Shown in pieces: positions 38,125-63,039 of a stretch of DNA of 64,000 nucleotides (position 1 is its first letter; every line of letters starts with the position of its first letter). Below the pieces are notes generated by a model. The model ran no database searches. It had not been told where the DNA came from and saw nothing but the letters and a program-made list of their open reading frames with translations. Location: NCBI GenBank assembly GCA_029959285.1, contig JASCOE010000018.1, positions 23,754-87,753 of the forward strand, read 5' to 3'. The stretch comes from Flavobacteriaceae bacterium PS02337 (GTDB taxonomy: Bacteria > Bacteroidota > Bacteroidia > Flavobacteriales > Flavobacteriaceae). A program made the position numbers and the translations under genes.

Positions 38125-39945
38125 TTAAACAGCTTTGTAAGCCTGGTCGGGATGATTTGGCATATCTATTATTGTATGCTGCAATCTGCCTTCATCTTTC
38201 ATCGGGAGGATATAGTTTCTATAAATGTAATTTTCATTTCTATTAAGTATTAAAGCTATCTGTTTTGTGGAGTAGCTTTTAAAACTGCATATTTTATAAA
38301 TTATATCTTTTATTTTATTTTGATCATTTTCTCTAACTCCTAGGTTGGATATTTGTTCTCTTATATCAGAAGGTAGCTCCTGTGTTAGATCATAGGGTTC
38401 TGTTGTAAGATCATCAGCTTCTGTGTTAAGATCATTAGGTTCTGTGTTAGCAACATCATCTTCTGTGTTAAGAACTCCACCAGTAGTATAATATGTAGAT
38501 CTTCCTTTTCCTTTTTGTTCAATAAGACCTTTATCTCGGAGACTTCTTAATTCATTACTTGCTTTTAATACATCACATGCATTTAATTGTCGATATGTTG
38601 AATTATCAATGGCACCAGCTTCTCTAATGAAAATCAATCCTTTTTTCTGTTCAGTATTTAACTCATACTCAGCAAAGGTATTTAGCCATTGAAGGTCACT
38701 TTCATTAAGAAAATGATGTAGTAAAAGACGAGTGGTAAATAAATTTGCGGTGTGGTCACTTTCAAATGTCGGCGGTGCTAGGGAGGATTTTTCCATTAAA
38801 ATTCTCATTGTCCTTATACCACTCCCTTTTGTTTCTGCAAGATTGGTTTCGTGAAAAATGGATGCAATAAACGGATTTCTGTTTTTAGAACCTGGTTCAC
38901 CTAGCTGCTCTTCCGGCTTTAATGAAAACCCTGGATTTTTAATTTCTAGTCTATTGCCGTAGCGAATAATTTGTATCGGCTGATTTTCTCTATAAGTTCT
39001 ATGTATAAAAGCATTCACAAGTGCTTCACGCAGAACTTTAGAAGGCAGACCAATAGCAGAAGCCTGCAACTCTCCATCCCCTAAAAGAAATCCTTTAGGG
39101 AGATCATCAGCAATTGCACTAAATACTCTTTGAACCAGTTCAATAAGCGGACCTCTCATATCTATTGTTGTAAACCTGTTTTCAGGATCTTCAACCCATT
39201 CATTACCTGGTACTCTAATGTAATCTATACGTACCATCGGTAGTAATCTTCTTAGGGCAGGACGTTTTCCAAAAACAAGTAGTCCTGTATAGGTTAGTTT
39301 CCATTCGTCCTTATCTTTTTTTACACATCCTAAAGATCTTAATAAATCAAAATCAGAATAGTTTAACTCCTCAGCATATTCATTTACTTTTGACCTTAAA
39401 CTTTTGTATAAAGAAATGGCTTCTTCACTGACATCATCAAGACTAGTATCTTTTACAATAATACTATCTAAACTATCTTCTTTATTATAGAATATAAATA
39501 GATCATCTTCGGTGCATCGCTGGTCACTTGAACCAATTCTTCTGTAAGCGCCTTGAGGCAAGCCCTTTTTTTTGAAATAAAGAGGTTTTTGTCCATCAGG
39601 TAATTCTTTTACAAACATTTTTAGGACTAACTTTCCATTGGGCATTTTCTCTATTTCAATTTCTGGTCTAACAGGCTGATTAAATAATGTCGCTGTTTGA
39701 GAAGCTATATCTAATTGTAATTTGTCTGGATTTGTAATTCCTTCAACTATATAATTTTGAAATAAGGTGCTTTCGTCTTTAACCACTCCTAAAACTATTA
39801 ATCCTCCTCCTAAGCCCGGCTCGTTGGAGAAAGCACAAATAGTTTCCATTATAGATGTGTCAATTTCGCTCCCTCTTTTGGCTTCAATTGTTGTACATTC
39901 GTCAGTAATATTTAAATGTTCTAAAATATCTTTAATAAGCTCCAT
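38125..39945 (-). CDS. AlbA_2 (Schlafen-like) domain protein with GHKL-type ATP-binding region
   Basis: A 606-aa protein of the group often labelled RecG-like transcriptional regulators. An N-terminal AlbA_2 domain (about 12-130) shows TIEAKRGSEI, GGLIVLGVVKD and QGAYRRIGSSDQRC. The middle (about 310-410) has a divergent HATPase fold with LREALVNAFIHRTY and the glycine pair in TKGSGIRTM. Winged-helix segments follow, interrupted at about 488-520 by an acidic stretch of NTE/TTE-xDL repeats. Such proteins occur in mobile islands and some defence loci; the function here is unknown. It sits alone, with a promoter-like TTG-N18-TATTTTTG upstream. Confidence 0.82.
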   Translation of the reverse strand: MELIKDILEHLNITDECTTIEAKRGSEIDTSIMETICAFSNEPGLGGGLIVLGVVKDESTLFQNYIVEGITNPDKLQLDIASQTATLFNQPVRPEIEIEKMPNGKLVLKMFVKELPDGQKPLYFKKKGLPQGAYRRIGSSDQRCTEDDLFIFYNKEDSLDSIIVKDTSLDDVSEEAISLYKSLRSKVNEYAEELNYSDFDLLRSLGCVKKDKDEWKLTYTGLLVFGKRPALRRLLPMVRIDYIRVPGNEWVEDPENRFTTIDMRGPLIELVQRVFSAIADDLPKGFLLGDGELQASAIGLPSKVLREALVNAFIHRTYRENQPIQIIRYGNRLEIKNPGFSLKPEEQLGEPGSKNRNPFIASIFHETNLAETKGSGIRTMRILMEKSSLAPPTFESDHTANLFTTRLLLHHFLNESDLQWLNTFAEYELNTEQKKGLIFIREAGAIDNSTYRQLNACDVLKASNELRSLRDKGLIEQKGKGRSTYYTTGGVLNTEDDVANTEPNDLNTEADDLTTEPYDLTQELPSDIREQISNLGVRENDQNKIKDIIYKICSFKSYSTKQIALILNRNENYIYRNYILPMKDEGRLQHTIIDMPNHPDQAYKAV

Positions 39946-41000: not shown

Positions 41001-41417
41001 ATGAAAAAAGCTAAGACCTATAAAATTTTCGATAATTTTTTTAAACTCGACCAGAGATTAAATAAAATAGAAAGCTTAGTACTCATAAACGAGTATCGTA
41101 ATGATTTACTGTTAGCTGAAAAGTGCAGAAGCACTTACAGTAAAAGTGAGCTTGCAATCCTTTTCTATGTCTTGATGGATGAGGGTATTTTATTTTTTGA
41201 TTCAAGTGATGCGAAAAAAAATAGGATCAGATTTCAGGAATTTTTAAGTGAAAATTTTTCATATAGAGATAATGAAGGAATTCAGAAAAAAATATCTAGA
41301 ATAAGCAGACAGTTTTCTGAGTGCAAAGGTTATACTTATAAAGAGAAACAGATAAAATTTTTAGATGACTTGATTGGGATATTGATGGAGAGAAAAAGAA
41401 AACTTGAGAACTGGTAA
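41001..41417 (+). CDS. small RteC-like protein of a mobile island
   Basis: A 138-aa basic, helical protein without signal or membrane segment. The central part (SELAILFYVLMDEGILF) followed by RFQEFLSENFSY, a Phe/Cys segment and KFLDDLIGILMERKRKLE has the layout of the C-terminal part of RteC, the regulator of Bacteroides conjugative elements (ELIYAL..G, FE..F, FLD.L). The resemblance is by pattern only. A DNA-binding-type small protein follows closely, so both may belong to a former integrative element. Confidence 0.55.
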   Translation: MKKAKTYKIFDNFFKLDQRLNKIESLVLINEYRNDLLLAEKCRSTYSKSELAILFYVLMDEGILFFDSSDAKKNRIRFQEFLSENFSYRDNEGIQKKISRISRQFSECKGYTYKEKQIKFLDDLIGILMERKRKLENW

Positions 41418-41460
41418 GCTGGGGATGAAAAAAATTATAACATTAACAAAAAATTCAATT

Positions 41461-41745
41461 ATGACAAAGAAAGAAAAGAGACAGGCTTTTATAATGGAGA
41501 TTAAAAATATTATAGATCCTTTAATGTTAAAACTAGAGTTAATCGATTCAAAAATAAGTAAAGGGAAAACCTTGAGACCTGCTTATTACAGGAATGAGGA
41601 TTTAAAAAAGATATTTGGGCTGTCTAATAATACTATTATAAAATACCGCCAGACGGGAGTGCTTCCATATACCAAATTGGGAGATATATTTTTATATGAC
41701 AGTGTAAAGATTGAGGAAACTCTTCGTGAGAATGGCAGCATTTAA
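41461..41745 (+). CDS. helix-turn-helix excisionase-like DNA-binding protein
   Basis: A 94-aa protein from ATG 41461 (an ATG at 41425 and a TTG at 41404 are in frame; the conserved part begins later). The C-terminal half, YYRNEDLKKIFGLSNNTIIK followed by YRQTGVLPYTKLGD, is a MerR/HTH_17-type domain like those of excisionases and small regulators next to integrases in Bacteroidetes. It follows the RteC-like gene by 43 bp. No integrase gene is present within the island, so a role in excision would need one in trans. Confidence 0.65.
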   Translation: MTKKEKRQAFIMEIKNIIDPLMLKLELIDSKISKGKTLRPAYYRNEDLKKIFGLSNNTIIKYRQTGVLPYTKLGDIFLYDSVKIEETLRENGSI

Positions 41746-43025: not shown

Positions 43026-43079
43026 CTGTGAATTTTAGCCTTTTTGTAAACTTCGACAAGTCTCTTTTTTAGCTTTCAG

Positions 43080-43164
43080 CGGAGGAAGAGGGATTCGAAC
43101 CCCCGGACCTGTTACAGTCAACAGTTTTCAAGACTGCCGCATTCGACCGCTCTGCCATTCCTCC
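43080..43164 (-). tRNA. tRNA-Ser (UGA anticodon)
   Basis: An 85-nt tRNA on the minus strand. The acceptor arms GGAGGAA / TTCCTCC pair fully, with discriminator G as in serine tRNAs. The anticodon loop reads CTTGAAA, giving UGA. A long variable arm (TTGACTGTAACAGGTC region) and the T loop GGTTCGAATCC are present. CCA is not encoded. The 3' end is the probable attachment site of the island to its left. Confidence 0.96.
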
Positions 43165-43196
43165 AGTAAGACACAATTATTTTCTCATTGCGGGTG

Positions 43197-43204
43197 CAAA
43201 GATA
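43197..43204 (-). promoter_or_regulatory. -7 box of the tRNA-Ser promoter
   Basis: TATCTTTG on the minus strand matches TAnnTTTG exactly, 32 bp upstream of the tRNA 5' end; a TTG lies about 16 bp further up, slightly close for a -33 box. Confidence 0.55.
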
Positions 43205-43884
43205 TAATGTTTTTTCAATTCAAGAAATTTTTTTGATAGTTTTATAAATGAAAAAATTTAGAATCCAATCGATGACTTTAGTCAGGATTTTAACTTGCTG
43301 TTTAATAGCTTGTTATTTTTGTGAGTTGGCCGTCCAAAAAGACCAAATGTAATAATGCATTTATATATTAATAAAATCAATGGAATAAAAATATCACAAT
43401 TTGTTTTTATTGCGCGTCTTTTTATTTGACTTTTAAATTGTGTCTGCACTGTGGACATAATTTAAACGATTTGTAAATCAATGAATTAACTTGTATTCGC
43501 ATTACCATCTCATCCGTAAACTTTTTATGGAACAAAAGTTTTCAAATAGCTTTCAGGTTCATATATTTTTATTTACCCGATAAAAATTACTAGAGATATT
43601 ACTGAATATTGAAATTATTGATAACCATTTTTGAGATGAGATATAATAGGTCTAATTTTAGTTGACAGTCTTTATTGAATATTGATTGTTAAAATATTGT
43701 TGTACTTATATTTAGATAAAATAAAACAGGTGTTTATACCTGTTTTTTATTTATATATTGATATTATATTTAACGAAAATTCCCAATAAATATAAATTTC
43801 GATTTTTCACTTTGACAGCTAAAATAATTATTAGTGGTAAAATAGATCTTGTTAAAAAAGTCAAATAAACTCAAACCAATGTTT
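43205..43884. other. gap between tRNA-Ser and the exported-protein gene
   Basis: No gene is visible. AT-rich sequence with a terminator-like hairpin at 43723-43748 (AAAACAGGT / ACCTGTTTT plus T run) that has no obvious upstream gene on the plus strand. Confidence 0.55.
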
Positions 43885-46617
43885 ATGAAAAAAATTTTAC
43901 TTTGCCTGCTTATGTTTAGCACATACGCATCAGGTCAGAAATCTGCACCTGTTTCGGGTGATGCAGCAGGCTTAATCGACCTTCTGTTTAAAGATTACTC
44001 CAACGTAAGCACAGAAAATATGTTAGAGGAGATAGCCAAGGACCGTGCAAAGGTCATTGCTGTATTCAAGACCTACACAGATGGGGTGGCTGCAAAGGCC
44101 ACATATTCTCAATTTGAGACCGAAAGGTCAGACTACCTTAAAAGCAAGGATGATTATGACCTGCAGGTCAAAAAAAACGATTTAACTGTAGCAGGAGTCC
44201 AAGCCCTGATAAGCCTTAAAAGCAGTTTTACTTCAAAGAAAGCGACCTATTTCGGTAATCTTTATACTTTTAATGATAAAGAACTTGAAAATCTGAAGGA
44301 TTATTTTGCTGCCAACAACAATGCTTTTCTAGTGGAAGTAATTGAAAAGTTTAGAACAAAATATAAAAATATTAAAGAGAGTAATTCCGATAATCTGGCA
44401 GTAAATAACAGCCAGCTGTCTGTTCAGAAAGGATTCCCATTTGCAGGTGGCGATATATTGGTGAAGGGTATTGATGGACTCAGCCGGTTTTTAGCCAACA
44501 GAATTAAGCAGGAGCTCACCTTAAATGCCATTCAAAATATTCAGGAGTATCTTCAGAATAAAGAAAAATATCCGTATCTATATGAATTGGAAGTATTGCT
44601 TCCTACCACATTTGATTACCTTAAAAATTTTGATGCAGACGAAATTTTAAAATTCACTGATGATTTAAAGCAGTATATTGAACAGGATCTAAAGAACCTG
44701 GTATCAAACGCAAAGAATTTAAGGGAGGTACCGCGAATAGTTGCGCAGCTGCAGAAGCATCCCGATCTTGATTTTGCATTTGAGGGACTGGATATTCTGC
44801 AAGAGGTTTCTAAAATCAAAAGTCCTGTCGATTATTTCGAAATAGTGTCCGCCAGCAGAAATATCAACAGGTGGCGCGGGGAGTCTGGTATGAAAAAAGA
44901 TATTGCCGAAGGATTGAATGTGGCTTGTATGATTGCCTACAGCCTCACGGTTGTGGAGAACGGTGAAGTAAAATTTATTACGACGGATTTTGCATCGGCC
45001 TATGGCAGCCAGAAAGATTTCTGCTATCTGTACTTTGGGTTTCTTCATCAGCAGAACCTGAAATATTATCAGGTAAAAAATGGCGTTAATCTGGTGACGG
45101 GTTTTGTCTCGGATGCAGATAAACTGGGAAGTTATCATGATTTTTTAAAGTATGAGGTAATAGATATTATCAGCGGGGCGGAAAGACTCCAGAGCCAGTT
45201 TTTAGCCATAAGAAAGAAAAATAAAAACGCGGAAAAGGTGGAGTATAGGGAAATGCATACCCTGATTAAAGATGTGATCAGATTTGCTCAGGAGATCACA
45301 TATTCAGGTGACTGGATTTTGGAAAAACTCAATACGGGAAATTACTATTCCGCAAAACTAAAACCTTATTTCGAAACAGCTTATCTGGCAAATGATATCA
45401 CACTGGATCTTAATGAAAAAAGATACACCAATGCCATCACCAAGGCGGTGGAAATTCCTCTGATGTTAGGAATGGAAAAAGGAATTGAAAACAATCTGGG
45501 AGGGCAGCTGAAATTCAGCCCTAGGACCATACAGGAGCTGGCTCCCATTTCCGGGCTTTTTAAAGTCAAAGACGAATCAGCGGTGAAACAGAAAGAAGCC
45601 TGGAAGCAGTATAAAACACAGACTGAAATACTGCAGTTTAAGATGATGGGAGACACTAAATTGAGTCCAATTGCAAAAGATCTGGAAAAGCTCAATGGAC
45701 TTTCAGTGGACAGCTGGGATGAAAATTTGTTTAAAGTATCGTTGAGCAGTTTGAAAACGGATATCAATAACAACAAAGACGCCATGATGGCTTTTCTGGG
45801 ATATGACAGGAAATCTGAGAAGGAAGTTATAGAGAAAAAACTTGAAAACTATAAACTGCAGCCTGAAACCAAAAAATTTATCCTAAAAAAATATGACGCT
45901 TATTATGATCAGGTATTTGATAAAGTGGTCTTTAATGAAAAGTTTAGTTTGGATGCGGAAGAGGAGCTGAAACAGGTATACAGTGCTTTTCTGCCCGAAC
46001 TGGCCGCGCAGAAATCAATTAAGTCAAACACCCAGCTGGTAAAATTCATTCATTTTGTGAATGATGTTGCGGTAGCCGACAGTCCGGAGGACTATGAAAA
46101 AGCAATCGAGGCCTTTGCGCTTCCGGTTGGAAGCTCCTCTTTAAAAGAGAAGGCCGTATATTATTTTTCGATTAATTCTTTTCCCGGAATCCTAGTGGGC
46201 GGTGAAAAAACACAGGACAAAGAATTGGCAGGTTTCATAGGCTTTACAGCGCCGGTAGGATTATATCTTCAGCCGTGGGGAGCATTTAAGAATAGAGGTT
46301 CCCTGGGCATTTTCCTTCCGATTATCGACATCGCGGCACCTGTAAGACTGCGACTTGATGGTTCGAAGGACACCCAGACACTGCCTGATTTTGAACTTCA
46401 GGATATTATTTCACCAGGTTTCTACCTCGTATATGGGTTCCCTAATTCCCCTTTTGCAGTCAATGCCGGTATTCAGTACGGTCCAAAGCTAAGGGATATA
46501 CCGGAGAGCACCGACGGAGGTTTTACTTCTGCTGATTCATACCGTTTCGGTGCAGGAGTCACTATTGATATACCACTGCTGACAATAGGTTCGAAATATA
46601 AAAATTTAGAACCTTGA
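43885..46617 (+). CDS. large exported protein of unknown function, possible beta-barrel end
   Basis: I do not recognise this 910-aa protein. ATG 43885 opens a signal peptide (KKILLCLLMFSTYASGQ); ATG 43879 is also possible. Residues about 25-760 are mostly charged helices without membrane segments or Cys-rich motifs. The last ~130 residues change character to alternating aromatic strands (GFIGFTAPVGLYLQPWG, GFYLVYGF, FAVNAGIQYGP, FGAGVTIDIPL), resembling an outer-membrane or beta-sandwich end. G+C is higher than in the flanking SusCD regions. The stop codon overlaps the TTG start of a trypsin-like protease, so the two products are probably made together and may work as a pair. Confidence 0.8.
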   Translation: MKKILLCLLMFSTYASGQKSAPVSGDAAGLIDLLFKDYSNVSTENMLEEIAKDRAKVIAVFKTYTDGVAAKATYSQFETERSDYLKSKDDYDLQVKKNDLTVAGVQALISLKSSFTSKKATYFGNLYTFNDKELENLKDYFAANNNAFLVEVIEKFRTKYKNIKESNSDNLAVNNSQLSVQKGFPFAGGDILVKGIDGLSRFLANRIKQELTLNAIQNIQEYLQNKEKYPYLYELEVLLPTTFDYLKNFDADEILKFTDDLKQYIEQDLKNLVSNAKNLREVPRIVAQLQKHPDLDFAFEGLDILQEVSKIKSPVDYFEIVSASRNINRWRGESGMKKDIAEGLNVACMIAYSLTVVENGEVKFITTDFASAYGSQKDFCYLYFGFLHQQNLKYYQVKNGVNLVTGFVSDADKLGSYHDFLKYEVIDIISGAERLQSQFLAIRKKNKNAEKVEYREMHTLIKDVIRFAQEITYSGDWILEKLNTGNYYSAKLKPYFETAYLANDITLDLNEKRYTNAITKAVEIPLMLGMEKGIENNLGGQLKFSPRTIQELAPISGLFKVKDESAVKQKEAWKQYKTQTEILQFKMMGDTKLSPIAKDLEKLNGLSVDSWDENLFKVSLSSLKTDINNNKDAMMAFLGYDRKSEKEVIEKKLENYKLQPETKKFILKKYDAYYDQVFDKVVFNEKFSLDAEEELKQVYSAFLPELAAQKSIKSNTQLVKFIHFVNDVAVADSPEDYEKAIEAFALPVGSSSLKEKAVYYFSINSFPGILVGGEKTQDKELAGFIGFTAPVGLYLQPWGAFKNRGSLGIFLPIIDIAAPVRLRLDGSKDTQTLPDFELQDIISPGFYLVYGFPNSPFAVNAGIQYGPKLRDIPESTDGGFTSADSYRFGAGVTIDIPLLTIGSKYKNLEP

Positions 46618-47729
46618 GAAGATATTATCTGCTTGTGATTCTGATAGGGACTTGCTCTCTAAATGGACAGGTCAAAGACACAGTTGTTGCAAAGCAAGAA
46701 ATAATAGCCAGAACTTTAGAAGTTTTTAAACGGTTTAAGGATCTAAAAGCAAATCAGAAGGAGTATGAGGGAGCTATCATTGAAGAGATTCAGTTAAGTA
46801 TTCCGCTACAGCAACCTGCTGCTTCAGGAGATGCCTTTTATTTAAAACAGCTTGCACAGAAAAGCTTGACGGGAGATCTGGGAAAAGAAGGACCCGCTAC
46901 TTTAATGCCTGAGGTAGATGGTAAAAACGCAGCGAGATTAACAGGGCCTTCACAATATGACAGTAGAATTGAGCCTTTAGTCTTGAACAGTGAAATACCT
47001 TGGCAGAAACAGATTCTGATCAATTCTGAATCGGTCGGCATTATAGTGGAGCGGGAAAAATTAAATGCTGTTTCAAAAGAGATATACCAGTTGGACATTT
47101 ATCTTAAATTAGGAGAAAGATATAATCTTTGTTCTGGAGAAGCTTTTGCCTATCAACCTGTTACCGGTGTCGGGACTGCATTTATCAGCGGTGATTCCAC
47201 TATGATAACGGCCCTGCACGTTTTTGAAAGACCTCTCAAACACTATGCGGTGGTTTTCGGTTATAAAATCATTTCCAGAACCGGAGTGGTGGATGTTTTT
47301 GTTGATAAAAAAGATGTTTACTTTCTTAAAGAAGTGATTAGAAAGAATAGTGAACAGGACGTAGCCGAATTCACAGTTGATCGGAGTTTTAACCGACCGG
47401 TTCTGGCAATAGAAAATTCAGAGGCTGTGACAAAAGAAAAAAATGAAATTTATATGATCGGATACCCAAGCGGACTGCCTCTGAAGGTAGCTTTAAATGC
47501 TTCGGTTACACAGAACGATAATCCATTTTATTTTTACACTACTCTTGATAGTTTCCAGGGGAATTCAGGTTCGCCTGTTTTTAATTTTTATACTCATAAA
47601 GTTATAGGAATACTAGTATCAGGAGAAATTGACTATAAGTTTAATGGATATTGCAATAAAGCCCCTTTATGTTTTTATCCTTTTTGTATGGGCGAGAAAG
47701 TGGTTAGGATAGAGAATGTTTTCAAATAG
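46614..47729 (+). CDS. exported trypsin-like serine protease, TTG start
   Basis: A 371-aa protein with a signal peptide (YYLLVILIGTCSLNG). The start is TTG at 46614, inside TTGA shared with the upstream stop; no ATG is better placed and the signal peptide begins directly. The last ~180 residues form a chymotrypsin-fold protease: His202 in ITALHVF, Asp249 in QDVAEFTV, Ser318 in FQGNSGSPVF. The preceding oxyanion-side region reads YMIGYPSGLPLK. Residues about 20-150 are a separate helical region specific to this protein. Overlapping genes suggest that it processes, or is regulated by, the upstream protein. Confidence 0.85.
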   Translation: MRRYYLLVILIGTCSLNGQVKDTVVAKQEIIARTLEVFKRFKDLKANQKEYEGAIIEEIQLSIPLQQPAASGDAFYLKQLAQKSLTGDLGKEGPATLMPEVDGKNAARLTGPSQYDSRIEPLVLNSEIPWQKQILINSESVGIIVEREKLNAVSKEIYQLDIYLKLGERYNLCSGEAFAYQPVTGVGTAFISGDSTMITALHVFERPLKHYAVVFGYKIISRTGVVDVFVDKKDVYFLKEVIRKNSEQDVAEFTVDRSFNRPVLAIENSEAVTKEKNEIYMIGYPSGLPLKVALNASVTQNDNPFYFYTTLDSFQGNSGSPVFNFYTHKVIGILVSGEIDYKFNGYCNKAPLCFYPFCMGEKVVRIENVFK

Positions 47730-48257
47730 AAAAATTAGAAAGTCTTATCATATTTTTTTAATTACTAGTATAATCTTTAAAAGATATTTTATTTTAGATA
47801 TGAAATCTAATAAAATATGAGAAAAGTCAAAATTGCAGAAGTTGGCTGAACCTAAAATTAAAGACGGGAAGAAGAATGAGAAATTAACTGTAAGGGAATT
47901 AAGAAATTGTGAAGGATTTGCGGATGTTTCAGATTCAGAGGTCGAACAAATAATTAAAAGTTTATATAGACTTTCTTTGATTGTTTTCAATTACAAGGCA
48001 AAGCAATAACTCAAAAAAATATATAGGTTACGATCGCTCTGCAACTCGAACCTTATTAGAGAAGAGTTTGATTTTAATGAATTTAAGAAGCATTTGAAAG
48101 TTTTGCGCCACGAGTACGCCACAAGACTTGGAGTACTAGATTATTTGTAAATTCATCCTAGCTTTTTGCAACAGAAATGGTATCAATTCAGTTAAATAAA
48201 TAGATAGAAAAATTGTTAATTATATTAAAGTGGGATAAAAGGCAAACTAATTGCTTT
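47730..48257. other. gap with element debris before the IS3 gene
   Basis: It holds a possible 59-codon gene (47833), another GCGCCACGA-N-CGCCACAA motif near 48109-48125, and a 27-bp sequence (48159-48185) partly repeated beyond the IS3 gene. An 80-codon minus frame at 47748 lacks any pattern and is not called. Confidence 0.5.
47833..48009 (+). CDS. possible small protein of a mobile element
   Basis: The frame is open from 47821 to a TAA at 48007-48009, with TTG (47833) as the only possible start near its left end. The product would end LTVRELRNCEGFADVSDSEV then EQIIKSLYRLSLIVFNY, a pattern (LTV.ELR...GF.D.SD.E...II..L..LS.I.F) I associate with small proteins next to integrative elements in this phylum. 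It lacks an ATG and a clear ribosome-binding site, so it may be a fragment. Confidence 0.3.
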   Translation: MQKLAEPKIKDGKKNEKLTVRELRNCEGFADVSDSEVEQIIKSLYRLSLIVFNYKAKQ

Positions 48258-49418
48258 TTACGGAAGATATTGTTTTTGGAATTCTTCCATTGTTAAATAT
48301 TCAAGAGCTGAATGTCTTCTGCAGGTGTTGTAGAAATTTTTGATATAATTGGTTACTGATGTTTTTGCTTTTTTAATGGACGCATATTGGTTCTGATAAA
48401 TTAACTCTGATTTAATTGTCTTGAAAAAGCTTTCTGCAACTGCATTGTCGTAGCAGTTTCCTTTTCTGCTCATGCTCTGAGTAATCTGATCACTTTTAGA
48501 TAAAATGTACACAAAGGCTTTGCAGGCATATTGGATTCCGCGGTCTGAATGAAATATTAATTTTTGGTTTCGAATTAATGGACGGTTGCGCAAAGCCTGC
48601 TTAAAAGCAACTATAGTTGTATCTATTGCTTTCATGGTTTTGCTTATGGACCAGCCTATAACTTTACGATCGAAGAGGTCTATTACTGCAGTAAGGTATA
48701 CCCAGCCTTTCTTAGTTTGAATGTAAGTAATGTCAGATACCCAGACCTGATTTTGGTTTCTAACTTTAAATTCCTGATTTAATAAATTGTCAGCTGCAGG
48801 ATATTTGGGAGACGAGATTGTAGTTCTTTTGAACTTTTGTTTTGCGATCCGTTGAAGATGATTCTCTAGCATTATCTTTCCAACATACGTGCGGGATACA
48901 TTTATACCTATTGCTGACAGTTCTTTAGTGATTCTTATGCTTCCGTACCTTCCTTGGCTCCAATGATAAATTCTTAGAATTTCAGATGTTATAAATATTT
49001 TTCTTTCAGCTCTGCTCGTAGATAGGTCTTTCCTCCATCTGTAGAAACAGCTTGGATCTACCTTGAAAATTTTACACATCTTAATAATTGGAAATTTTTC
49101 ACAGTTTTCCAAGATGAATTTATAGCGAAGCCGCCTTTTCTGTAAAATAACTCCTGTGCTGCTTTCTAAGATATCCTTTTCTATCTGAATATTTTTGATT
49201 TCTTTTTTTAATCTTATTAATTCTTTTTGGTTAGCATCTAAATCTGATTTTTTCTCGAGGGTCAATTTTCCTTCCTTGTAAAGTTTTTTCCAATGTTGGA
49301 GGCTATTTTCACTGATGCCTAGGTCCTGGGATACAGTTAATACACTTTTATATTGATTACTGATTGTGACGGCACAAATTTTAAATTCCAACGGCCACTT
49401 TTTTCGAGTATTTTCCAT
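48258..49418 (-). CDS. IS3-family transposase (OrfA and OrfB in one frame)
   Basis: A 386-aa transposase: helix-turn-helix OrfA part (about 5-60, WPLEFKICAVTISNQYKSVL and GISENSLQHWKK), a leucine-zipper-like coiled coil (about 60-90), then the OrfB part with HTH_21 and the DDE core: VWVSDITYIQ, IFHSDRGIQYA and SRKGNCYDNAVAESFFKTIKSE. Many IS3 elements need a -1 frameshift between OrfA and OrfB. Here both are in one continuous frame, fused around ILESSTGVILQKRRLR. The catalytic motifs are intact. I could not define the inverted repeats at the ends. Confidence 0.93.
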   Translation of the reverse strand: MENTRKKWPLEFKICAVTISNQYKSVLTVSQDLGISENSLQHWKKLYKEGKLTLEKKSDLDANQKELIRLKKEIKNIQIEKDILESSTGVILQKRRLRYKFILENCEKFPIIKMCKIFKVDPSCFYRWRKDLSTSRAERKIFITSEILRIYHWSQGRYGSIRITKELSAIGINVSRTYVGKIMLENHLQRIAKQKFKRTTISSPKYPAADNLLNQEFKVRNQNQVWVSDITYIQTKKGWVYLTAVIDLFDRKVIGWSISKTMKAIDTTIVAFKQALRNRPLIRNQKLIFHSDRGIQYACKAFVYILSKSDQITQSMSRKGNCYDNAVAESFFKTIKSELIYQNQYASIKKAKTSVTNYIKNFYNTCRRHSALEYLTMEEFQKQYLP

Positions 49419-49601: not shown

Positions 49602-50465
49602 ATGACGACATCCGATTCACAAAGTGCCAAATATACTTATGCTACGGTACCCACCCGGTTTATTGAAGCGGGCGGAATAAAATTTGCCTACAGGTCATAT
49701 GGTAAGCAAGGAGACATTCCTGTTATTTATTTTAATCACTTAACAGCAAACCTTGATAATTGCGACCCAAGAATTATGGATGCCATTGCGGCAGAGCGCC
49801 ATATTATTTCTTTTGATTATCGCGGTGTTGGTGCAACTACGGGAGAACAAGGAACAAGTATTGCTGATATGGCAAAAGATGCTGTTGCCTTTATTCATGC
49901 TTTAGGATACCAACAAGTGGACATTGTGGCATTTTCTATGGGTGGTTTTATTACCCAGGAATTACTTTTGCAAGAGCCGGCTTTGGCCCGTAAAATTATT
50001 CTTGCAGGTACAGGTCCCAGAGGCGGAAAAGGGATTAGTGATGTGGCTGGTTTAACGTACAAGGACATTTTAAAAGGCCTGTTGACATTCAGAGATCCTA
50101 AATTTTATCTGTTTTTTACTCAAAACAAAATAGGTAAAGAAGCAGCCCGCGATTTTCTAAAACGTCTAAAAGAAAGAACTGAAAACCGTGATGAGAAAGT
50201 AAAATTGAGTGTGCTGGGCAAACAACTTAAGGCTATTAAAATATGGGGAAATGATAATCCGGCCGATTTGAGTGTTTTCAAACATCCTGTATTGGTAGTC
50301 AATGGCGATAATGACAGAATGGTGCCAACGCCTAATTCGTATGATTTGGCAAAGCGTTTTCCTAATGCTGAAAAAGTAATAATTTATCCAAATTCAGGGC
50401 ATGGCGGAATTTTTCAATATCATAAAGAATTTCTTGAAAAAGCAATACCATTTTTGACTAAATAA
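49602..50465 (+). CDS. alpha/beta-fold hydrolase
   Basis: A 287-aa cytoplasmic hydrolase. The frame is open from 49518, but the ATG at 49602 is best because the upstream part encodes the repeat region. The oxyanion region reads VIYFNHLTANLDNCDP, the nucleophile elbow is FSMGG, the acid is probably the Asp of VNGDNDRMVP, and the His lies in NSGHGG. Members of this family act as esterases, lactonases or dehalogenase-like enzymes; the substrate cannot be inferred. It forms an operon with the oxidoreductase 13 bp downstream. Confidence 0.88.
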   Translation: MTTSDSQSAKYTYATVPTRFIEAGGIKFAYRSYGKQGDIPVIYFNHLTANLDNCDPRIMDAIAAERHIISFDYRGVGATTGEQGTSIADMAKDAVAFIHALGYQQVDIVAFSMGGFITQELLLQEPALARKIILAGTGPRGGKGISDVAGLTYKDILKGLLTFRDPKFYLFFTQNKIGKEAARDFLKRLKERTENRDEKVKLSVLGKQLKAIKIWGNDNPADLSVFKHPVLVVNGDNDRMVPTPNSYDLAKRFPNAEKVIIYPNSGHGGIFQYHKEFLEKAIPFLTK

Positions 50466-50478
50466 AAATCAAATAATA

Positions 50479-51483
50479 ATGAAAGCATTTATAGTAAAAA
50501 AATACGGCAAAAAAGAAAAATTACATTTGACTGATTGGGCTGAACCGGCTGTAAAAGAAAATGATGTATTGGTAGAAGTACATTCGGCAAGTGTAAACCC
50601 GTTAGATCTGATGATTAAAAATGGCGAGTTTAAATTATTTTTACCCTATAAGCCACCATTTGTAAATGGACATGATCTTGCCGGTATTGTGACCAAAACA
50701 GGCTCTAAAGTCAGCAGATTCAAAGTGGGCGATGAAGTGTATTCCCGTCCATCAGATCATAGAATAGGTGCTTTTGCTGAGTATATTTCGATTGATGAAA
50801 AGGACGTGGCTTTAAAGCCAAAAAATCTATCCATGGAACAAGCCGGTTCCATTCCGCTGGTTGGTTTAACTTCCTGGCAGGCACTTGTTGAAATTGGAAA
50901 AATTAAAAAAGGACAAAAAGTTTTTATTCAGGCAGGTTCGGGCGGCGTGGGTACGTTCGCCATTCAATTGGCGAAACATTTAGGTGCTTTTGTAGCAACA
51001 ACGACAAGTTCAAAAAATATTGATTTAGTAAAAAGTCTCGGTGCAGATTTAGTCATTGACTACAAAACAGAAGATTTTGAAACGAAATTGAAGGATTACG
51101 ACTTGGTACTGCATAATAACAAAGATTCAAAAATTCTTGAAAAATCACTGCGAATTTTAAAATCCGGCGGGCAGTTAATTTCTCTGGTCGGACCGCCGAC
51201 ACCTGAATTTGCCAATGCATTGGGTTTGTCCTGGCCTTTGAAAATGGTGATAAGGTTTTTAAGTTCCAGTGCAAGAAGGAAGGCAAAAAAAAGAAACGTA
51301 TCTTTTAAATTCCTGTTTATGAGATCTGAAGGTAAACAACTTAGTCAGATTACAGAGCTTATAGAGGCTGGTGTCATAAAACCTGTTATTGATAAAGTTT
51401 TTGCCTTTGAGCAGGCCAATGAAGCATTGTCTTATGTTGAAACAGGAAGGTCAAAAGGAAAAGTCGTTATTAAGGTTAAGTAG
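50479..51483 (+). CDS. NADP-dependent MDR-family oxidoreductase (quinone reductase type)
   Basis: A 334-aa zinc-independent medium-chain dehydrogenase. The GroES-like N-terminal domain (about 5-115) shows VHSASVNPLDLMIKNGEF and GHDLAGIV. The Rossmann part has FIQAGSGGVGTFAIQLAKHLGA. The C-terminal end, FAFEQANEALSYVETGRSKG followed by KVVIKV, is characteristic. No zinc-binding cysteines are seen. Together with the hydrolase upstream and the SDR further on, it suggests a detoxification or small-molecule metabolism cluster. Confidence 0.9.
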   Translation: MKAFIVKKYGKKEKLHLTDWAEPAVKENDVLVEVHSASVNPLDLMIKNGEFKLFLPYKPPFVNGHDLAGIVTKTGSKVSRFKVGDEVYSRPSDHRIGAFAEYISIDEKDVALKPKNLSMEQAGSIPLVGLTSWQALVEIGKIKKGQKVFIQAGSGGVGTFAIQLAKHLGAFVATTTSSKNIDLVKSLGADLVIDYKTEDFETKLKDYDLVLHNNKDSKILEKSLRILKSGGQLISLVGPPTPEFANALGLSWPLKMVIRFLSSSARRKAKKRNVSFKFLFMRSEGKQLSQITELIEAGVIKPVIDKVFAFEQANEALSYVETGRSKGKVVIKVK

Positions 51484-51691
51484 TTTGATAACAGTTAAGT
51501 TCCATTAAACTTTAATATTTAGTTTTGCTGGAAATATAATGTAGGGAATATTATTTTAAAACTGGATTTTTCGTAAAGTAAAATATAATATTGGATATAA
51601 AAATTAAAAAAGCTGTCATTACTTTACGGACAGTCTCTTTTAAAATATATAGCTCTGAGATAATTTAATACTTTGCTTTGTTCACGACCAG

Positions 51692-51722
51692 TTTGGAAAC
51701 ATTTTACCCCAATTTGGAAACA
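51692..51722 (+). promoter_or_regulatory. paired TTTGGAAACA sites, likely AraC-type operator
   Basis: TTTGGAAACA occurs at 51692-51701 and 51713-51722, exactly 21 bp apart (two DNA turns), upstream of the SDR gene. An AraC-family regulator is encoded right after the SDR gene. The rest of the gap (51484-51776) is AT-rich with no gene. Confidence 0.5.
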
Positions 51723-51776
51723 GATTGTATGGCTTAGCTTATGGAAATTTGCAGTGTAATTTTAAATACTATAAAA

Positions 51777-52580
51777 ATGCAAAAAACAATTTTCATTACA
51801 GGAGCTTCTTCAGGTTTAGGAAAAGCTGCTGCTAAATTATTTCAGTCAAAAGGATGGAATGTAATCGCTACTATGCGTAATCCGGAAAAAGAAACAGAAC
51901 TTAATCAATTGCAAAATATTATACTGATTGCCCTTGATGTTACAAATCCTGAACAAATTCAAACTACAATAAATAAAATTAACGCTATACATAATGTCGA
52001 TGTTGTATTTAATAATGCGGGTTACGGATTAATGGGCGCACTGGAAGCTTTTACTGATGAGCAGATCTTAAAACAGCTCAATACAAATCTTTTGGGTGTA
52101 ATCCGGGTTACCAAGGCATTTATTCCTAATTTTAGAGAAAAGAAAAGCGGATTGTTTGTTAGCACAACTTCAATGGGTGGTTTTTTGGCATTTCCACTGC
52201 ATTCTATTTATCATGCATCCAAATTTGCTGTTGAAGGATGGTCTGAAGGAATGTCTTTTGAATTAGGACTGCATAATATTAAAATTAAAACGGTTGCTCC
52301 CGGAGCTTTTGCAACAGATTTTTTAGGCAGATCGCTTGATAAAACCTTACATCCGGGTTATGGGCAATTAGAAGACAAGCTTTTCTCTATGACCGATGCA
52401 ATGATGGGATCAGCGGTTAGTGCAGAAAAAATTGCAGAAGTGGTTTATGAAGCGGCAACGGATGAAAAAGACCAGATTAGATATATTGCAGGTGAAGATG
52501 CAAAAGCAATGCATGCAAGACGTTTGGAATTTGGTTCTGAGGATTTTAGAAAAGAGATTAGACAGCTCATTTTAGGATAA
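51777..52580 (+). CDS. short-chain dehydrogenase/reductase (SDR)
   Basis: A 267-aa classical SDR. I use ATG 51777 because the NAD-binding motif begins a few residues later (TIFITGASSGLGKAAA); ATG 51741 is also in frame but adds no domain. The catalytic set is NNAGYG, the Ser in STTSMGG, and YHASK (Tyr and Lys). After the PG motif, VAPGAFATDFLGRS follows the family. Its neighbour is an AraC regulator, which commonly controls such SDR genes. Confidence 0.9.
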   Translation: MQKTIFITGASSGLGKAAAKLFQSKGWNVIATMRNPEKETELNQLQNIILIALDVTNPEQIQTTINKINAIHNVDVVFNNAGYGLMGALEAFTDEQILKQLNTNLLGVIRVTKAFIPNFREKKSGLFVSTTSMGGFLAFPLHSIYHASKFAVEGWSEGMSFELGLHNIKIKTVAPGAFATDFLGRSLDKTLHPGYGQLEDKLFSMTDAMMGSAVSAEKIAEVVYEAATDEKDQIRYIAGEDAKAMHARRLEFGSEDFRKEIRQLILG

Positions 52581-52591
52581 TATTTAAAATA

Positions 52592-52621
52592 AGGCAGTTG
52601 TTTGATAAACAGCTGCTTTTA
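52592..52621 (+). terminator. hairpin after the SDR gene
   Basis: AAGGCAGTTGTTT and AAACAGCTGCTTTT pair with one mismatch around a three-base loop, followed by TTT. It also overlaps the -33 region of the next promoter. Confidence 0.65.
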
Positions 52622-52630
52622 ATAAATTTG
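52601..52630 (+). promoter_or_regulatory. Bacteroidetes-type promoter for the AraC gene
   Basis: TTTG at 52601-52604 and TAAATTTG at 52623-52630 are 18 bp apart, a close match to the TTTG / TAnnTTTG promoter; the start codon follows 10 bases later. Confidence 0.55.
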
Positions 52631-52640
52631 AAAAGAACAA

Positions 52641-53552
52641 ATGAATACTATAAATTCCATATCTGAATTTCATCGCCTGGTATCACTACCAGAACCTCTG
52701 CATCCGCTCGTAAGTGTAATTCGTGTGGCAGATATTCGTTTTAATAATACTGAAATTTGGGAGCAGTTCTCTTTAAATTTTTATTGTATATCATTAAAAA
52801 AAGATGTTTCCGGAAAAGTAAAATACGGTCAGCAATATTATGATTTTGACAAAGGGCTGATGACTTTTATTGCTCCAAAACAAATTCAGACACTCGCTGT
52901 TCCTCATGATCAGATACTGGGACCGGAATCAGGAACAGGATATGCGCTCTTACTGCATCCTGATTTTCTCTACAGACATCCTCTTGCAGCGACAATTAAA
53001 AATTATGGTTTCTTCTCATATGCTGTTAATGAAGCGCTGCATCTTTCAGAAAGAGAAGAAAAAAATATCATTGAAATTATTGAAAAAATTGATACTGAAT
53101 ACCAATTCATCGATAAACACACACAAGATATTATTCTTTCTCAAATCGATTTGTTATTAAATTACAGCAATCGTTTTTATGAAAGGCAGTTCATTACAAG
53201 AAAAGCTATAAACCATGATCTGCTTACTAAGATGGATCAGTTATTGAATGAATTTTTTGAACAGGAACAAACGCAGAAAAATGGAATTCCATCAGTTGAT
53301 CTTCTTGCTAAAAAGCTGAATTTGTCATCCTATTATTTAAGTGATATGTTACGCTCACTAACAGGGCAGAGTGCACAGCAGCATATTCAGGATAAACTGA
53401 TTGAAAAGGCAAAAGAATATCTTTCGCTGACAAATTTATCGGTTGCTGAAATTGCTTATCGGTTAGGTTTTGAATACCCGCAGTCTTTTAATAAACTATT
53501 TAAAAAAAAATTAAATCTCTCTCCGCTGGAGTTCAGGCAGACATTTAACTAA
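52641..53552 (+). CDS. AraC-family transcriptional regulator
   Basis: A 303-aa regulator with a cupin-like N-terminal sensor (about 20-180; FIAPKQIQTLAVP, GYALLLHPDFL) and a C-terminal pair of helix-turn-helix motifs (about 205-300): SVDLLAKKLNLSSYYLSDML and LSVAEIAYRLGFEYPQSFNK ending KLNLSPLEFRQTF. It is probably the regulator of the SDR gene upstream and possibly of itself, through the 21-bp-spaced sites at 51692. Confidence 0.93.
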   Translation: MNTINSISEFHRLVSLPEPLHPLVSVIRVADIRFNNTEIWEQFSLNFYCISLKKDVSGKVKYGQQYYDFDKGLMTFIAPKQIQTLAVPHDQILGPESGTGYALLLHPDFLYRHPLAATIKNYGFFSYAVNEALHLSEREEKNIIEIIEKIDTEYQFIDKHTQDIILSQIDLLLNYSNRFYERQFITRKAINHDLLTKMDQLLNEFFEQEQTQKNGIPSVDLLAKKLNLSSYYLSDMLRSLTGQSAQQHIQDKLIEKAKEYLSLTNLSVAEIAYRLGFEYPQSFNKLFKKKLNLSPLEFRQTFN

Positions 53553-53733
53553 ATCAAAAGAATATTAATAAATAACACTTTTAAAACCAGTTATTTACAA
53601 TAAATCTGAATTTACCTGCTGAAATGATGAATTATAATCTAAATGAAATTCTTTAAATCACACGAAAAATATTTCCATGCAGTCCTGTTTAAAATACAGT
53701 TCATTGGTTTTTTGGTTTATTTATTTTATTTAA

Positions 53734-53764
53734 TTGGAGGTACAGTTATAATGAGTTAAATTTG
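53734..53764 (+). promoter_or_regulatory. candidate promoter very close to nhaA
   Basis: TTG at 53734-53736 and TAAATTTG at 53757-53764 are 20 bp apart. The -7 box ends five bases before the ATG, so the transcript would be nearly leaderless. Confidence 0.4.
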
Positions 53765-53769
53765 TATTT

Positions 53770-54963
53770 ATGGCAAAACTCATAAATCTTAAGGTCTTTT
53801 CTCATTTTTTCCGATCCTCCTCTGCAGGTGGAATTATATTATTAATCTGTGTACTTATATCACTTGTGATTGCCAACTCGGGATGGTCGGATGGTTTTAA
53901 GGAACTGCTTAATTTTGAATTAGGATTCCATACTTCTTCGCTGCATTTAAAATATCCGGTCCTACTCTGGATCAATGACGGGCTTATGGCTGTTTTTTTT
54001 CTTCTTGTAGGACTGGAAATAAAAAGGGAGATAGTGGAAGGGGAGCTTTCTTCATTTTCCCAGGCCTCCCTTCCGGTGCTTGCCGCCGTGGGTGGTGTAG
54101 CGGTTCCGGCCTTAATTTATTTCTTTTTTAATAACGACGATCTGCATACGGCCAAAGGCTGGGGAATTCCAATGGCTACCGATATTGCTTTTGCACTGGG
54201 GATTTTATCGCTTTTAGGCAGTAAGGTACCTTCGGGCCTTAAGATTTTTCTGGCTGCGCTGGCTATTGTGGATGACCTTATTGCTATTTTAGTCATTGCG
54301 GTATTTTATTCATCAGAACTTAATTTTCTTTATTTAGGATATGCAGGGGCATTGTTTGTTTTATTGATTGTTTTTAATCGAATGGGTGTCAAAAATCTGC
54401 TTTTTTACCTGATCCCCGGAGCAGTTATCTGGTATTTTATTCATCACTCGGGTATTCATGCCACTATTGCCGGTGTTCTGGTAGCCATAACGCTGCCCAC
54501 TACTGAGGATGATACGGAGTCTGCTCTTGAAAAACTGGAACATGCCCTCACTCGTCCGGTGAATTTTATTATCATGCCTATTTTTGCCCTTGTCAATACC
54601 AACATCACTTTTGAATCTGAGATGATATCAGGGCTTTTCAGTAATCTGGGACTGGGTATTATCCTTGGATTGTTTTTAGGCAAACCCATTGGGATTTTTA
54701 TCATGTCATGGCTGTCGGTCAAGCTGAAAATTGCCGAACTTCCCCAGTCTGTTACCTGGATGCATGTATTGGGGCTTGGCCTGCTGGGCGGGATAGGATT
54801 TACAATGTCGATCTTTATTGCCCTATTGTCTTTTAGTGATGTACTGCATCAGAATGAAGCCAAATTCGCGATACTCATTGCCTCTACAATTGCCGGAATT
54901 TCAGGATTTTGCATTTTGAGCCTGTACAATAAAAAGCAGAAAAAAGCGCTTGGGGATACTTAA
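53770..54963 (+). CDS. nhaA: Na+/H+ antiporter NhaA
   Basis: A 397-aa inner-membrane antiporter that exchanges protons for sodium. It has about 12 hydrophobic segments. Key motifs are present: the GLEIKREIVEGEL loop after the second segment, the MATDIAFALG and AIVDDLIAILVIA stretches with the ion-binding Asp pair, and GGIGFTMSIFIALLSF near the end. Length fits the family. The stop codon overlaps, tail to tail, with that of the DUF389 gene (TTAA shared at 54960-54963). G+C is clearly above that of the PUL regions. Confidence 0.95.
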   Translation: MAKLINLKVFSHFFRSSSAGGIILLICVLISLVIANSGWSDGFKELLNFELGFHTSSLHLKYPVLLWINDGLMAVFFLLVGLEIKREIVEGELSSFSQASLPVLAAVGGVAVPALIYFFFNNDDLHTAKGWGIPMATDIAFALGILSLLGSKVPSGLKIFLAALAIVDDLIAILVIAVFYSSELNFLYLGYAGALFVLLIVFNRMGVKNLLFYLIPGAVIWYFIHHSGIHATIAGVLVAITLPTTEDDTESALEKLEHALTRPVNFIIMPIFALVNTNITFESEMISGLFSNLGLGIILGLFLGKPIGIFIMSWLSVKLKIAELPQSVTWMHVLGLGLLGGIGFTMSIFIALLSFSDVLHQNEAKFAILIASTIAGISGFCILSLYNKKQKKALGDT

Positions 54964-56270
54964 TGTTTCTTGAAAAGTTCCACATCTTTTACCAGCAGGC
55001 GCTCATTGAGCCACAGCTTGAGTTTGTCGCTCTGGGCCGGACTTAGAGTTTTAGCGCCGTCATAGATAACTGCCGTTATCGTTGTAATGCTGTCTTTTTG
55101 ATTAACAAGGCTGCTTTTATTGATAGAGAGTGAACTTACCTCGGGAAATAAAACCCTGGTTTCTTTTAAGATCTGACGATTATCAAATTTGTTCTTTCTC
55201 AGCTGCTTTTCCAGCTGCATGATCTTAACGTCCTTGACGTTCATCTCATTCTCACTGCTTTTAATCTGGCTCAGGATATCGCCCTTTAGAACATTGAAGC
55301 GGTCGGTACTGTCCTGGCGGATCTGTAACTCTGTGCCGGCCAGGTATTTATTTTGGTTCATTTTATCTTTAAGCTCTTTTATTTCTAATGCGGAAAACCG
55401 TCTGGAGAGGAATGCCAGTTCGAGTCTTTTGTTTTTAGGGTTAAAATCGGTTTTTTTATACACTATGGTATATCCTTTATTGGTGAATTCACTCTCAATG
55501 AAAAGATCTGCATTTTTTTTAAACTGCTGCTCCCTGTACAGAGAGTACGCCAGATAACTGCTGGGTACCAGCATAATTGTTATTAAAAAAGCAATGGTAT
55601 ACTTTACCCGTTTTTGGTGTTTTTCATCTACCTGTTTAACGGCCGGGTAGTTAAGGTATTTAATGATTAAAAAAGTAGCAATTCCTATAAAGACGCAGTT
55701 GATGCAGTAGAGATAAAATGCCCCTAAAAAAAAGGTCCACTGCGCGGTGGCAATCCCGTAGCCTGCAGTACACAGGGGTGGCATAAGGGCCGTTGCGATG
55801 GCCACTCCTGGAATTGGATTGCCTTTTTCTGATCTGGTAACGGCAATCACTCCCACAATACCTCCAAAAAAGGCAATAAGGATATCATAGATATTCGGGG
55901 AAGTCCTGGCCAGCAGTTCGGACTGCACATCCTTGAAGGGACTAAGGTAAAAGTATAAGGTCGAAACCACCAGGCTAACTACTGTTGCAGTCAGTAAATT
56001 TTTGAGTGATCTTTTCAGCAATGAAAAATCATAAATACCCAATGCGAATCCGGCCCCCACAATTGGCCCCATGAGAGGGGATATGAGCATTGCCCCAATA
56101 ATCACAGCGGTGGAGTTTACATTTAACCCAACCGAGGCGACAATAATGGCGCAGGCTAAAATCCAAAGGTTTGCTCCTTTGAACGTTATATTGTTCTTTA
56201 CTGCTTCAAGGGTTTTCGTCCTGTCATCTTCTCCATCGCGAAGGTTAAGCAGGTCTGTAATTTTTCTCAT
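54960..56270 (-). CDS. DUF389 (TIGR00341-type) integral membrane protein
   Basis: A 436-aa membrane protein. Residues about 35-240 carry at least six hydrophobic segments with the family's STAVIIGAMLISPLMGPIVG, GFALGIYDF and IPGVAIATALMPPLCTAGYG motifs. The C-terminal part (about 255-436) is soluble, with a coiled-coil-like stretch (SENEMNVKDVKIMQLEKQLR). Function is not established for the family. Here it faces NhaA and follows a ClC gene, suggesting a role in ion or acid stress. Confidence 0.88.
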   Translation of the reverse strand: MRKITDLLNLRDGEDDRTKTLEAVKNNITFKGANLWILACAIIVASVGLNVNSTAVIIGAMLISPLMGPIVGAGFALGIYDFSLLKRSLKNLLTATVVSLVVSTLYFYLSPFKDVQSELLARTSPNIYDILIAFFGGIVGVIAVTRSEKGNPIPGVAIATALMPPLCTAGYGIATAQWTFFLGAFYLYCINCVFIGIATFLIIKYLNYPAVKQVDEKHQKRVKYTIAFLITIMLVPSSYLAYSLYREQQFKKNADLFIESEFTNKGYTIVYKKTDFNPKNKRLELAFLSRRFSALEIKELKDKMNQNKYLAGTELQIRQDSTDRFNVLKGDILSQIKSSENEMNVKDVKIMQLEKQLRKNKFDNRQILKETRVLFPEVSSLSINKSSLVNQKDSITTITAVIYDGAKTLSPAQSDKLKLWLNERLLVKDVELFKKH

Positions 56271-56281
56271 AAGCTATAAAA

Positions 56282-56325
56282 TTAGCAAGGCTTTGTAATG
56301 CCTTATTTTTGGCATGCATTGCTAA
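56282..56325. other. double hairpin upstream of the DUF389 gene
   Basis: TTAGCAA (56282-56288) pairs with TTGCTAA (56319-56325), and inside it ATGCC (56298-56302) pairs with GGCAT (56311-56315). It sits 12 bp before the start codon in the leader and could be a regulatory RNA structure or an operator. Confidence 0.4.
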
Positions 56326-56413
56326 GATAAGACTAATTTTAATAATTATTTACTGAAATTGGGCAAATGAGAACTCAAAGCCGATTGAATTTATTTTTAT
56401 ACAAGGTAAGGTT

Positions 56414-58198: not shown

Positions 58199-58223
58199 TT
58201 TACTAAGTTGTATACTAGAATCG

Positions 58224-58231
58224 CAAAGTTA
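58224..58231 (-). promoter_or_regulatory. -7 box before the ClC gene
   Basis: TAACTTTG on the minus strand matches TAnnTTTG, 25 bp upstream of the start codon; no good -33 element was found. Confidence 0.35.
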
Positions 58232-58282
58232 CCTTTTCAAAGGGGTTAATGGGAAAAATGAAACGTTAATGTAATGCTAATT

Positions 58283-58741: not shown

Positions 58742-58845
58742 TTTCTATTGCTGTTCTCTGATTTAAAAGTAACGGTTTTTTATCAGAGATTCTTATCTGT
58801 TCTTTTTGTACCAGGACAATTTATCTTGATGCTGTGCTGTTATTC

Positions 58846-58882
58846 AAACACAAAGCCCAATTGGATTGGGCTTTGTGTGTTT
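58846..58882 (-). terminator. terminator after the DUF3570 operon
   Basis: AAACACAAAGCCCAA pairs with TTGGGCTTTGTGTGTTT around a 5-nt loop. It sits just beyond the DUF3570 stop. Confidence 0.85.
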
Positions 58883-58896
58883 TTAAATAATTAATT

Positions 58897-60081: not shown

Positions 60082-60098
60082 TTTTGATCGTATGAAAA

Positions 60099-61697: not shown

Positions 61698-61803
61698 TTT
61701 ACGGATTTGTTTTTAGGTATATACGAAATAACGAATTGTTGGGTATCTTATTTTTTTTGCTTGCTTAAGATTCGATTAAATTTTAAATCAAAAAAACTAT
61801 TTT

Positions 61804-62493: not shown

Positions 62494-62503
62494 AATTTTT
62501 AAT

Positions 62504-62902: not shown

Positions 62903-63039
62903 ATTAAAAAGGTTTGTTTTTTTATTATAAAATTAAAGCAAACTATTGTAAGATAATGTGTTAGAATCTATAGAGTGATTCTAAATTTTATAATACTATT
63001 TTAGGCTCGTAATTATTATATGAAATAATCAGTTAGAAA

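Follow-up and report, generated by a model that had tools for sequence, protein, structure and literature searches.

A mobile gene pair of Flavobacteriaceae, encoding a large helical protein with a barrel-like end and a trypsin-like protease, suggests a possible, so far undescribed surface system under protease control

In this study, we analysed two adjoining genes of Flavobacteriaceae bacterium PS02337 (assembly GCA_029959285.1, contig JASCOE010000018.1, positions 23,754 to 87,753; this whole stretch of 64,000 nucleotides is hereafter called the window), of which the first (gene 1) encodes a large helical protein and the second (gene 2) a trypsin-like serine protease (Table 1). The two genes are paired in every member found of a clade of full-length relatives, which form a common family, and they have moved between genomes as a unit in a recent transfer. 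The large protein itself belongs to an unnamed family that is spread across Bacteroidota and often coupled to peptidases of different kinds, and which is without a model in the libraries as far as these were tested. Together these results give a hint of a cell-surface system, so far undescribed, that would be controlled by proteolysis.

An earlier note on this DNA, made from the letters alone, had read a TTGA shared by the stop of gene 1 and the start of gene 2, and this overlap is indeed present. In the window's genome and in a second genome of the genus, G335, the only start is this TTG at -4, whereas in the other 12/14 pairs an ATG is available in frame, at -1 to +5 bp; for this reason the reading of the TTG start as a sign of low translation was dropped. 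A search with the large protein gave matches in 7/296 genomes of the order and 31/399 of the genus, and ten of the 399 have a full-length relative (the window's own, G335, G503, G191, G620, G670, G535, G590, G628 and G499). A protease profile scored 545-602 bits in exactly these ten genomes and 30 in the next best; in the genus searches for both proteins, scoring covered just the two to four top candidates from a first look at each genome. The protease also lies directly downstream in Mesonia oceanica, Tenacibaculum skagerrakense, an uncultured Psychroserpens and genome G1345 from another genus of Flavobacteriaceae, so that it stands next door in 14/14 full-length clade members found (clade support 100/99). 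Distance matrices of the 12 non-redundant pairs are correlated (r = 0.90; 0/2000 permutations as high), a result that common ancestry can also yield.

The earlier note had placed the pair in accessory DNA close to a tRNA-Ser, and both statements hold: the pair is rare and lies inside a mobile block, the window contains transposases and a tRNA, and ARAGORN finds tRNA-Ser (tga) at the edge of the block. Each of the 16 bins of 250 bases between 43251 and 47250 has 246-250 identities to G335, and the bins beyond have 233, 234, 192 and 147. To the left of the block the match to G335 is down to 82%, and to the right (50400-64000, 13.6 kb) 18 matches are found in G335 at 64-83%, mostly elsewhere in its genome. 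Since a block of 97% identity is flanked by matches of 64-83%, the pair has spread recently as one segment. The different base composition reported before is real in direction, the content of guanine and cytosine being 0.395 in the pair vs 0.346 in the rest of the window, but modest, because 6.6% of equal-sized windows in this stretch are as high.

The large protein is probably exported and seated in the outer membrane through its small C-terminal barrel, with the helices in the periplasm. Signal peptides had been assigned to both products, and the protease as well as 63/66 large proteins of the family described below indeed have signal-peptide-like starts, as judged by a simple hydropathy score with a limit of 1.9. 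The barrel-like end is likewise borne out, with about 9-10 strands predicted at the C terminus (an eight-stranded closed barrel would need 8 antiparallel strands), and outer-membrane barrels, named so by title or known as such, make up 22 of the best 23 matches listed in a structural comparison of this domain. A C-terminal aromatic residue is a feature for outer-membrane barrel assembly; the chain ends here in SKYKNLEP, without such a residue. In the AlphaFold2 model, the conserved residues 185-212 lie inside a low-confidence stretch (166-211), and the predicted local distance difference test (pLDDT) is below 50 at residues 746-751, by the helix-barrel junction, where the position of Lys754 is K in 65/66 family members.

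As supposed earlier, the large protein matches no known family: neither NCBIfam nor PADLOC gave a match, and Pfam gave only AIG1 (E 0.09), below cut-off. This hint and a haemolysin HBL match in one relative (0.09) were both taken as chance. The large proteins of L062 and L067, two members of the wider family, had no match to a PADLOC 2.0 antiphage family or in NCBIfam either. No relative was found among PDB sequences, nor among the plasmids, phages and viral contigs searched; a narrow scan of contigs with the large protein alone as query returned 0 relatives, though some exist there. No publication was recognised as describing the family in a literature search covering mostly freely available published papers.

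The protease belongs to a known kind, of which it forms a subfamily. It matches Trypsin_2 at 1.3e-11 (45.9 bits vs a curated cut-off of 27.6), its nearest solved relatives in PDB are SplA (1.4e-5) and V8 (2.3e-4), from a family that we take to be S1B, and its trypsin part alone matches the PADLOC profiles RT-Protease_XI (1e-12) and LmuA (1.8e-6). The triad named in the earlier note is intact, with His202, Asp249 and Ser318 invariant in 9/9 aligned proteases, as are cysteines 173, 347, 353 and 358, but the N-terminal region thought to be private to this protein is common to the protease family in the same alignment. An Asp is found six residues before the catalytic Ser in 12/12 non-redundant relatives, at what is presumably the position of trypsin Asp189 at the base of the S1 pocket, which suggests, from sequence, a preference for cleavage after Lys or Arg.

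A profile of the wider family, built from the last 225 residues of the large protein, matched in 16/395 phylum, 17/295 class and 5/199 family genomes, in draws that overlap and each of which takes in the window's own genome. With six duplicates and one truncated gene removed, 66 members remained for comparison. Searched within these 66 alone, a profile iterated from the N-terminal half picks up 63 of them, and Asp268 is kept in 65/65 aligned rows and Pro240 in 61/63 (some proteins contribute two rows each); the N-terminal motif DA..L (33/66) proved too loose. Pfam found nothing convincing in 32 C-terminal domains of the family, and in 29 diverse full-length members it reported nine families with one member each, of which only an M43 metallopeptidase domain (1.8e-19), with the related Reprolysin_5, is convincing. 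Its carrier is taken to be L055 because only this locus among the 29 has HExxH; the motif is also present in the large protein of L056, outside the 29.

The genes beside these proteins were taken from longest open reading frame (ORF) calls, with motifs read separately, and 40 neighbours were tested in Pfam (39 of 74 operon neighbours and the L106 trypsin). A peptidase partner or fusion was recognised in 43/66 loci. The partner is of the window's protease type in 14 loci and a subtilase in 13, 12 of these by Pfam S8 and L053 as a relative without a Pfam match. Nine loci have other trypsin-like neighbours, L045 above cut-off and eight by motif; among the latter, a joint profile of L052, L059, L069, L096 and L108 with L045 is trypsin-like at 84% probability over 30 columns only, L062 and L064 reach 5% (L062 with a Pfam value of 0.0091, below cut-off), and L124 is trypsin-like by motif alone. 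In L106 the Trypsin_2 match is above cut-off, and an ORF of the opposite strand separates the two genes. The partner in L103 is a caspase. The M48 partners are L105 (above cut-off), L117 (below, with an above-cut-off Trypsin match one gene further) and L102 (by HExxH only), and an M43-like peptidase is fused to the large protein in L055 and L056. Other hydrolases stand in three loci, namely a patatin just below cut-off (L104) and DUF900 (L114 and L115), and in the remaining 20/66 no same-strand hydrolase was recognised; on the opposite strand of L101 lies a gene that resembles LpxR, as judged from sequence. The expectation that the two genes are conserved side by side thus held for the full-length clade (14/14 protease-adjacent) but not throughout the wider family, where, with 39 of the 74 operon neighbours tested in Pfam, 23/66 are without a recognised peptidase partner.

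Several loci are arranged in their own way. The barrel gene of L103 is followed after 3 bp by a gene (L103:2928-4985) for a caspase-domain protein (C14, 9.6e-18) that begins like a signal peptide. In L055 and L056 the next gene is LpxR (by Pfam and by resemblance, respectively), preceded in L056 by a PLD-domain gene. Tandem subtilase-like genes come before the barrel gene in L053 and L097, the adjacent one of L053 looking degenerate and being without a Pfam match, and in L120 a subtilase precedes a barrel gene that is split by an in-frame stop, a copy which may be decayed.

Peptidases of several kinds are in excess next to the large gene. S1 or S8 is found in 33/107 adjacent ORFs of at least 150 residues (21 S1, 14 of them the clade's own, and 12 S8), in 4/93 at distance two and in 2/179 farther off in the same loci, with an S8 profile that was built from these neighbours and favours them somewhat; the window's genome as a whole has only 3 S8 and 3 Trypsin_2 matches. 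On the tree of the 66 members the S8 label requires 8 changes and the other-S1 label 7, at least 3 each being forced by well-supported branches, and the labels are clustered (18 changes in total vs a shuffled mean of 40.4) yet spread over several clades. The tree fits an exchange of partners, though three changes could also stand for a single gain followed by two losses, and the placement of several long branches is uncertain.

The partners seem to act in different places. Signal-peptide-like starts were obtained for the window's protease type (3/3 scored), the caspase, the M48 partners of L105 and L117 and both DUF900 partners, and scores below the limit for L102 (1.61 vs 1.9) and for 13/13 subtilases (highest 1.46). 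Members of one inner-membrane protein family, most of them predicted to have three helices, are encoded in 14 loci (L050, L051, L053, L067, L096-L100, L102, L108, L116, L120 and L122), ten of them with a subtilase; in L096 and L108 the family member is part of one protein with a trypsin-like domain, and the L050 member had no match in Pfam, PADLOC or NCBIfam. Taken together, the signal-peptide and inner-membrane results indicate one branch with exported proteases and another that is membrane-linked and apparently cytosolic.

How the pair works can be proposed tentatively. We consider it possible, though somewhat short of probable, that the pair is a single module of the envelope, accessory and mobile, in which the protease cuts and switches on an envelope-acting partner in response to phage or envelope damage. 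The gene 1 product would be exported, with its small C-terminal barrel in the outer membrane and its helices reaching into the periplasm, and the protease, exported from the adjoining gene, would cut after Lys or Arg. Its most likely substrate would be the large protein, at the flexible junction near Lys754 or in the conserved unstructured residues 166-211, and cleavage would turn this envelope-acting protein on, probably upon phage attack or envelope damage. In the wider family, the helical-barrel protein would be the constant part and the kind of peptidase beside it would vary. We infer seating in the outer membrane, cleavage of the partner, activation rather than turnover, partner exchange in evolution and a role in defence, the last because of rarity, mobility and varied peptidase partners and by analogy with protease-activated antiphage pairs (PMC12799240). 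On the other hand, two points weigh against protease action on the barrel protein, namely that the junction lysine is kept whatever the partner and that cytosolic proteases could not reach it. Of the interpretation in the earlier note, the idea of a functional pair located at the envelope is supported, cutting or activation of the large partner by the protease is putative, and guarding of the surface is only one possible role.

The main rival, which we regard as unlikely, is that the barrel protein is a trans-envelope sensor which detects phage or damage and signals inward, the peptidase or lipase being an effector that cuts other, hypothetical targets. The S8 partners without signal peptide (13/13), the inner-membrane family of 14 loci with its two fusions to a trypsin-like domain, and the DUF900, near-cut-off patatin, PLD and LpxR genes, as would be expected of exchangeable effectors, all favour such a sensor; however, no gene of the inner-membrane family was found in the searched loci of the window's clade, and the window's protease is itself exported. 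Still less probable is a role in maturation or housekeeping, for nutrition, adhesion or protein quality control; the large protein would then be trimmed by the protease, or would itself, as a helical protein, serve to fold, anchor or inhibit it. Helical foldases are frequent in the periplasm, as are surface proteins processed by proteases in general, and adjacent exported hydrolases would suit an anchor or chaperone, but the rare and scattered distribution (the family in 31/399 and the pair in 10/399 genus genomes), the mobile block and the apparently cytosolic partners of the S8 branch argue against it. That the two genes merely travel together in gene-rich mobile islands without joint function, as the transposases and tRNA in the window's accessory DNA might suggest, is very improbable given 14/14 paired clade members, protease starts that lie within -4 to +5 bp of the stop, an occurrence of both genes that coincides exactly across 399 genomes, and peptidases at only 2/179 among the far genes of the same loci.

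Table 1. Features of the gene pair and its immediate surroundings in the window
Feature	Position	Strand	Basis or remark
Gene 1, large helical protein, predicted to be exported and to end in a beta-barrel domain, 910 aa	43885..46617	+	stop TGA 46615-46617
Predicted signal peptide of gene 1, residues 1-18	43885..43938	+	hydropathy score, end set by eye
Helical part of gene 1, residues 22-756	43948..46152	+	AlphaFold2 model, mean pLDDT 69.5
Conserved segment of helical part, residues 185-212, PFAGGDILVKGIDGLSRFLANRIKQELT	44437..44520	+	
Near-invariant Lys754, helix-barrel junction	46144..46146	+	alignment of family members
C-terminal beta-barrel-like domain, residues 757-905	46153..46599	+	structure prediction and structural comparison
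TTGA overlap of gene 1 stop and gene 2 start	46614..46617	+	TTG from 46614
Gene 2, exported trypsin-like (V8/Spl-like) serine protease (export predicted), 371 aa	46614..47729	+	TTG start
Predicted signal peptide of gene 2, residues 1-19	46614..46670	+	hydropathy score, end set by eye
Peptidase domain, residues 187-333	47172..47612	+	Pfam Trypsin_2 match range
Catalytic His202	47217..47219	+	alignment of 9 proteases
Catalytic Asp249	47358..47360	+	alignment of 9 proteases
Asp312, six residues before catalytic Ser	47547..47549	+	12/12 non-redundant relatives
Catalytic Ser318	47565..47567	+	alignment of 9 proteases
tRNA-Ser (tga), at edge of high-identity block	43079..43164	-	ARAGORN
Block 97% identical to G335, holds the pair	43078..48054	.	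blastn and MAFFT vs L036
Transposase just beyond block	48258..49418	-	rve and HTH_Tnp_1

The transposase beyond the block is presumably of IS3 type, and a transposase and ATPase gene pair read from translations at 24677-26980 looks to us like an IS21 element. At 38125-39945 a protein with Schlafen/AlbA_2 and HATPase_c_4 domains matches the PADLOC pAgo profile (3.2e-17 over residues 18-346). Two small genes at 41001-41745, the second with an HTH_17 match below cut-off, resemble by eye pairs near the large gene in L041, L042 and L043 and are likely mobile-element remnants. Near other pairs, in an uncontrolled check of nine chosen neighbours of L037, L041, L042 and L044, PADLOC gave matches of 4.5e-41 in L041 and 5.6e-17 in L042 and weak ones in the other two loci, which makes the matched genes candidates for a role in defence.

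Across Bacteroidota, it is possible, though again somewhat short of probable, that the family makes up protease-gated envelope systems with a fixed helical barrel core, in which S1, S8, C14, M48 or M43 peptidases or lipases are exchangeable and some act through an inner-membrane relay, as an envelope counterpart of gasdermin- or caspase-type immunity. To our knowledge, known bacterial proteolytic immunity acts mostly in the cytosol. If the idea is true, proteolytic switching would also operate in the envelope, the first point of contact between phage and cell, and a testable role would be given to the barrel protein, the inner-membrane protein and the protease subfamily, all without a specific model in the libraries searched.

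In bacterial gasdermins, a protease, caspase-like or trypsin-like, is encoded beside the protein that it activates. The pair shares with them the protease next to a putative target and the varying kind of protease, but gasdermins are cytosolic and of a different fold, and neither NCBIfam nor PADLOC matched the large protein, nor did Pfam above its cut-off, whether or not these libraries include a gasdermin model. The staphylococcal Spl and V8 proteases differ from the gene 2 product, which has about 160 extra N-terminal residues and a paired barrel protein, and no sequence relation was found between the large protein, with its long helical part before the barrel, and OmpA, NspA, OmpW or OmpX. 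The conflict systems with trypsin, caspase or subtilisin peptidases described in PMC7159879 are mainly NTP-dependent, and in the main text of that paper 'outer membrane', 'beta-barrel' and 'signal peptide' occur 0 times and 'periplasm' twice. Also among the closest known systems are the nuclease-protease pairs of Hachiman and AVAST and canu (PMC12799240), in which the protease activates the adjacent partner, the partner being an MBL-fold nuclease and the trypsin-like protease being fused to a defence enzyme. No MBL-fold nuclease of HamM type was recognised in the large protein, which has no Pfam match above cut-off and consists of predicted helices followed by strands. The present pair is like those systems in its adjacent genes, trypsin-like or caspase protease, repeated acquisition and similar gene trees, and unlike them in that predicted export signals are present on both products and a helical protein with a barrel-like end takes the place of the nuclease. 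Proteolytic partner modules are already known, and their envelope version may be a class of its own.

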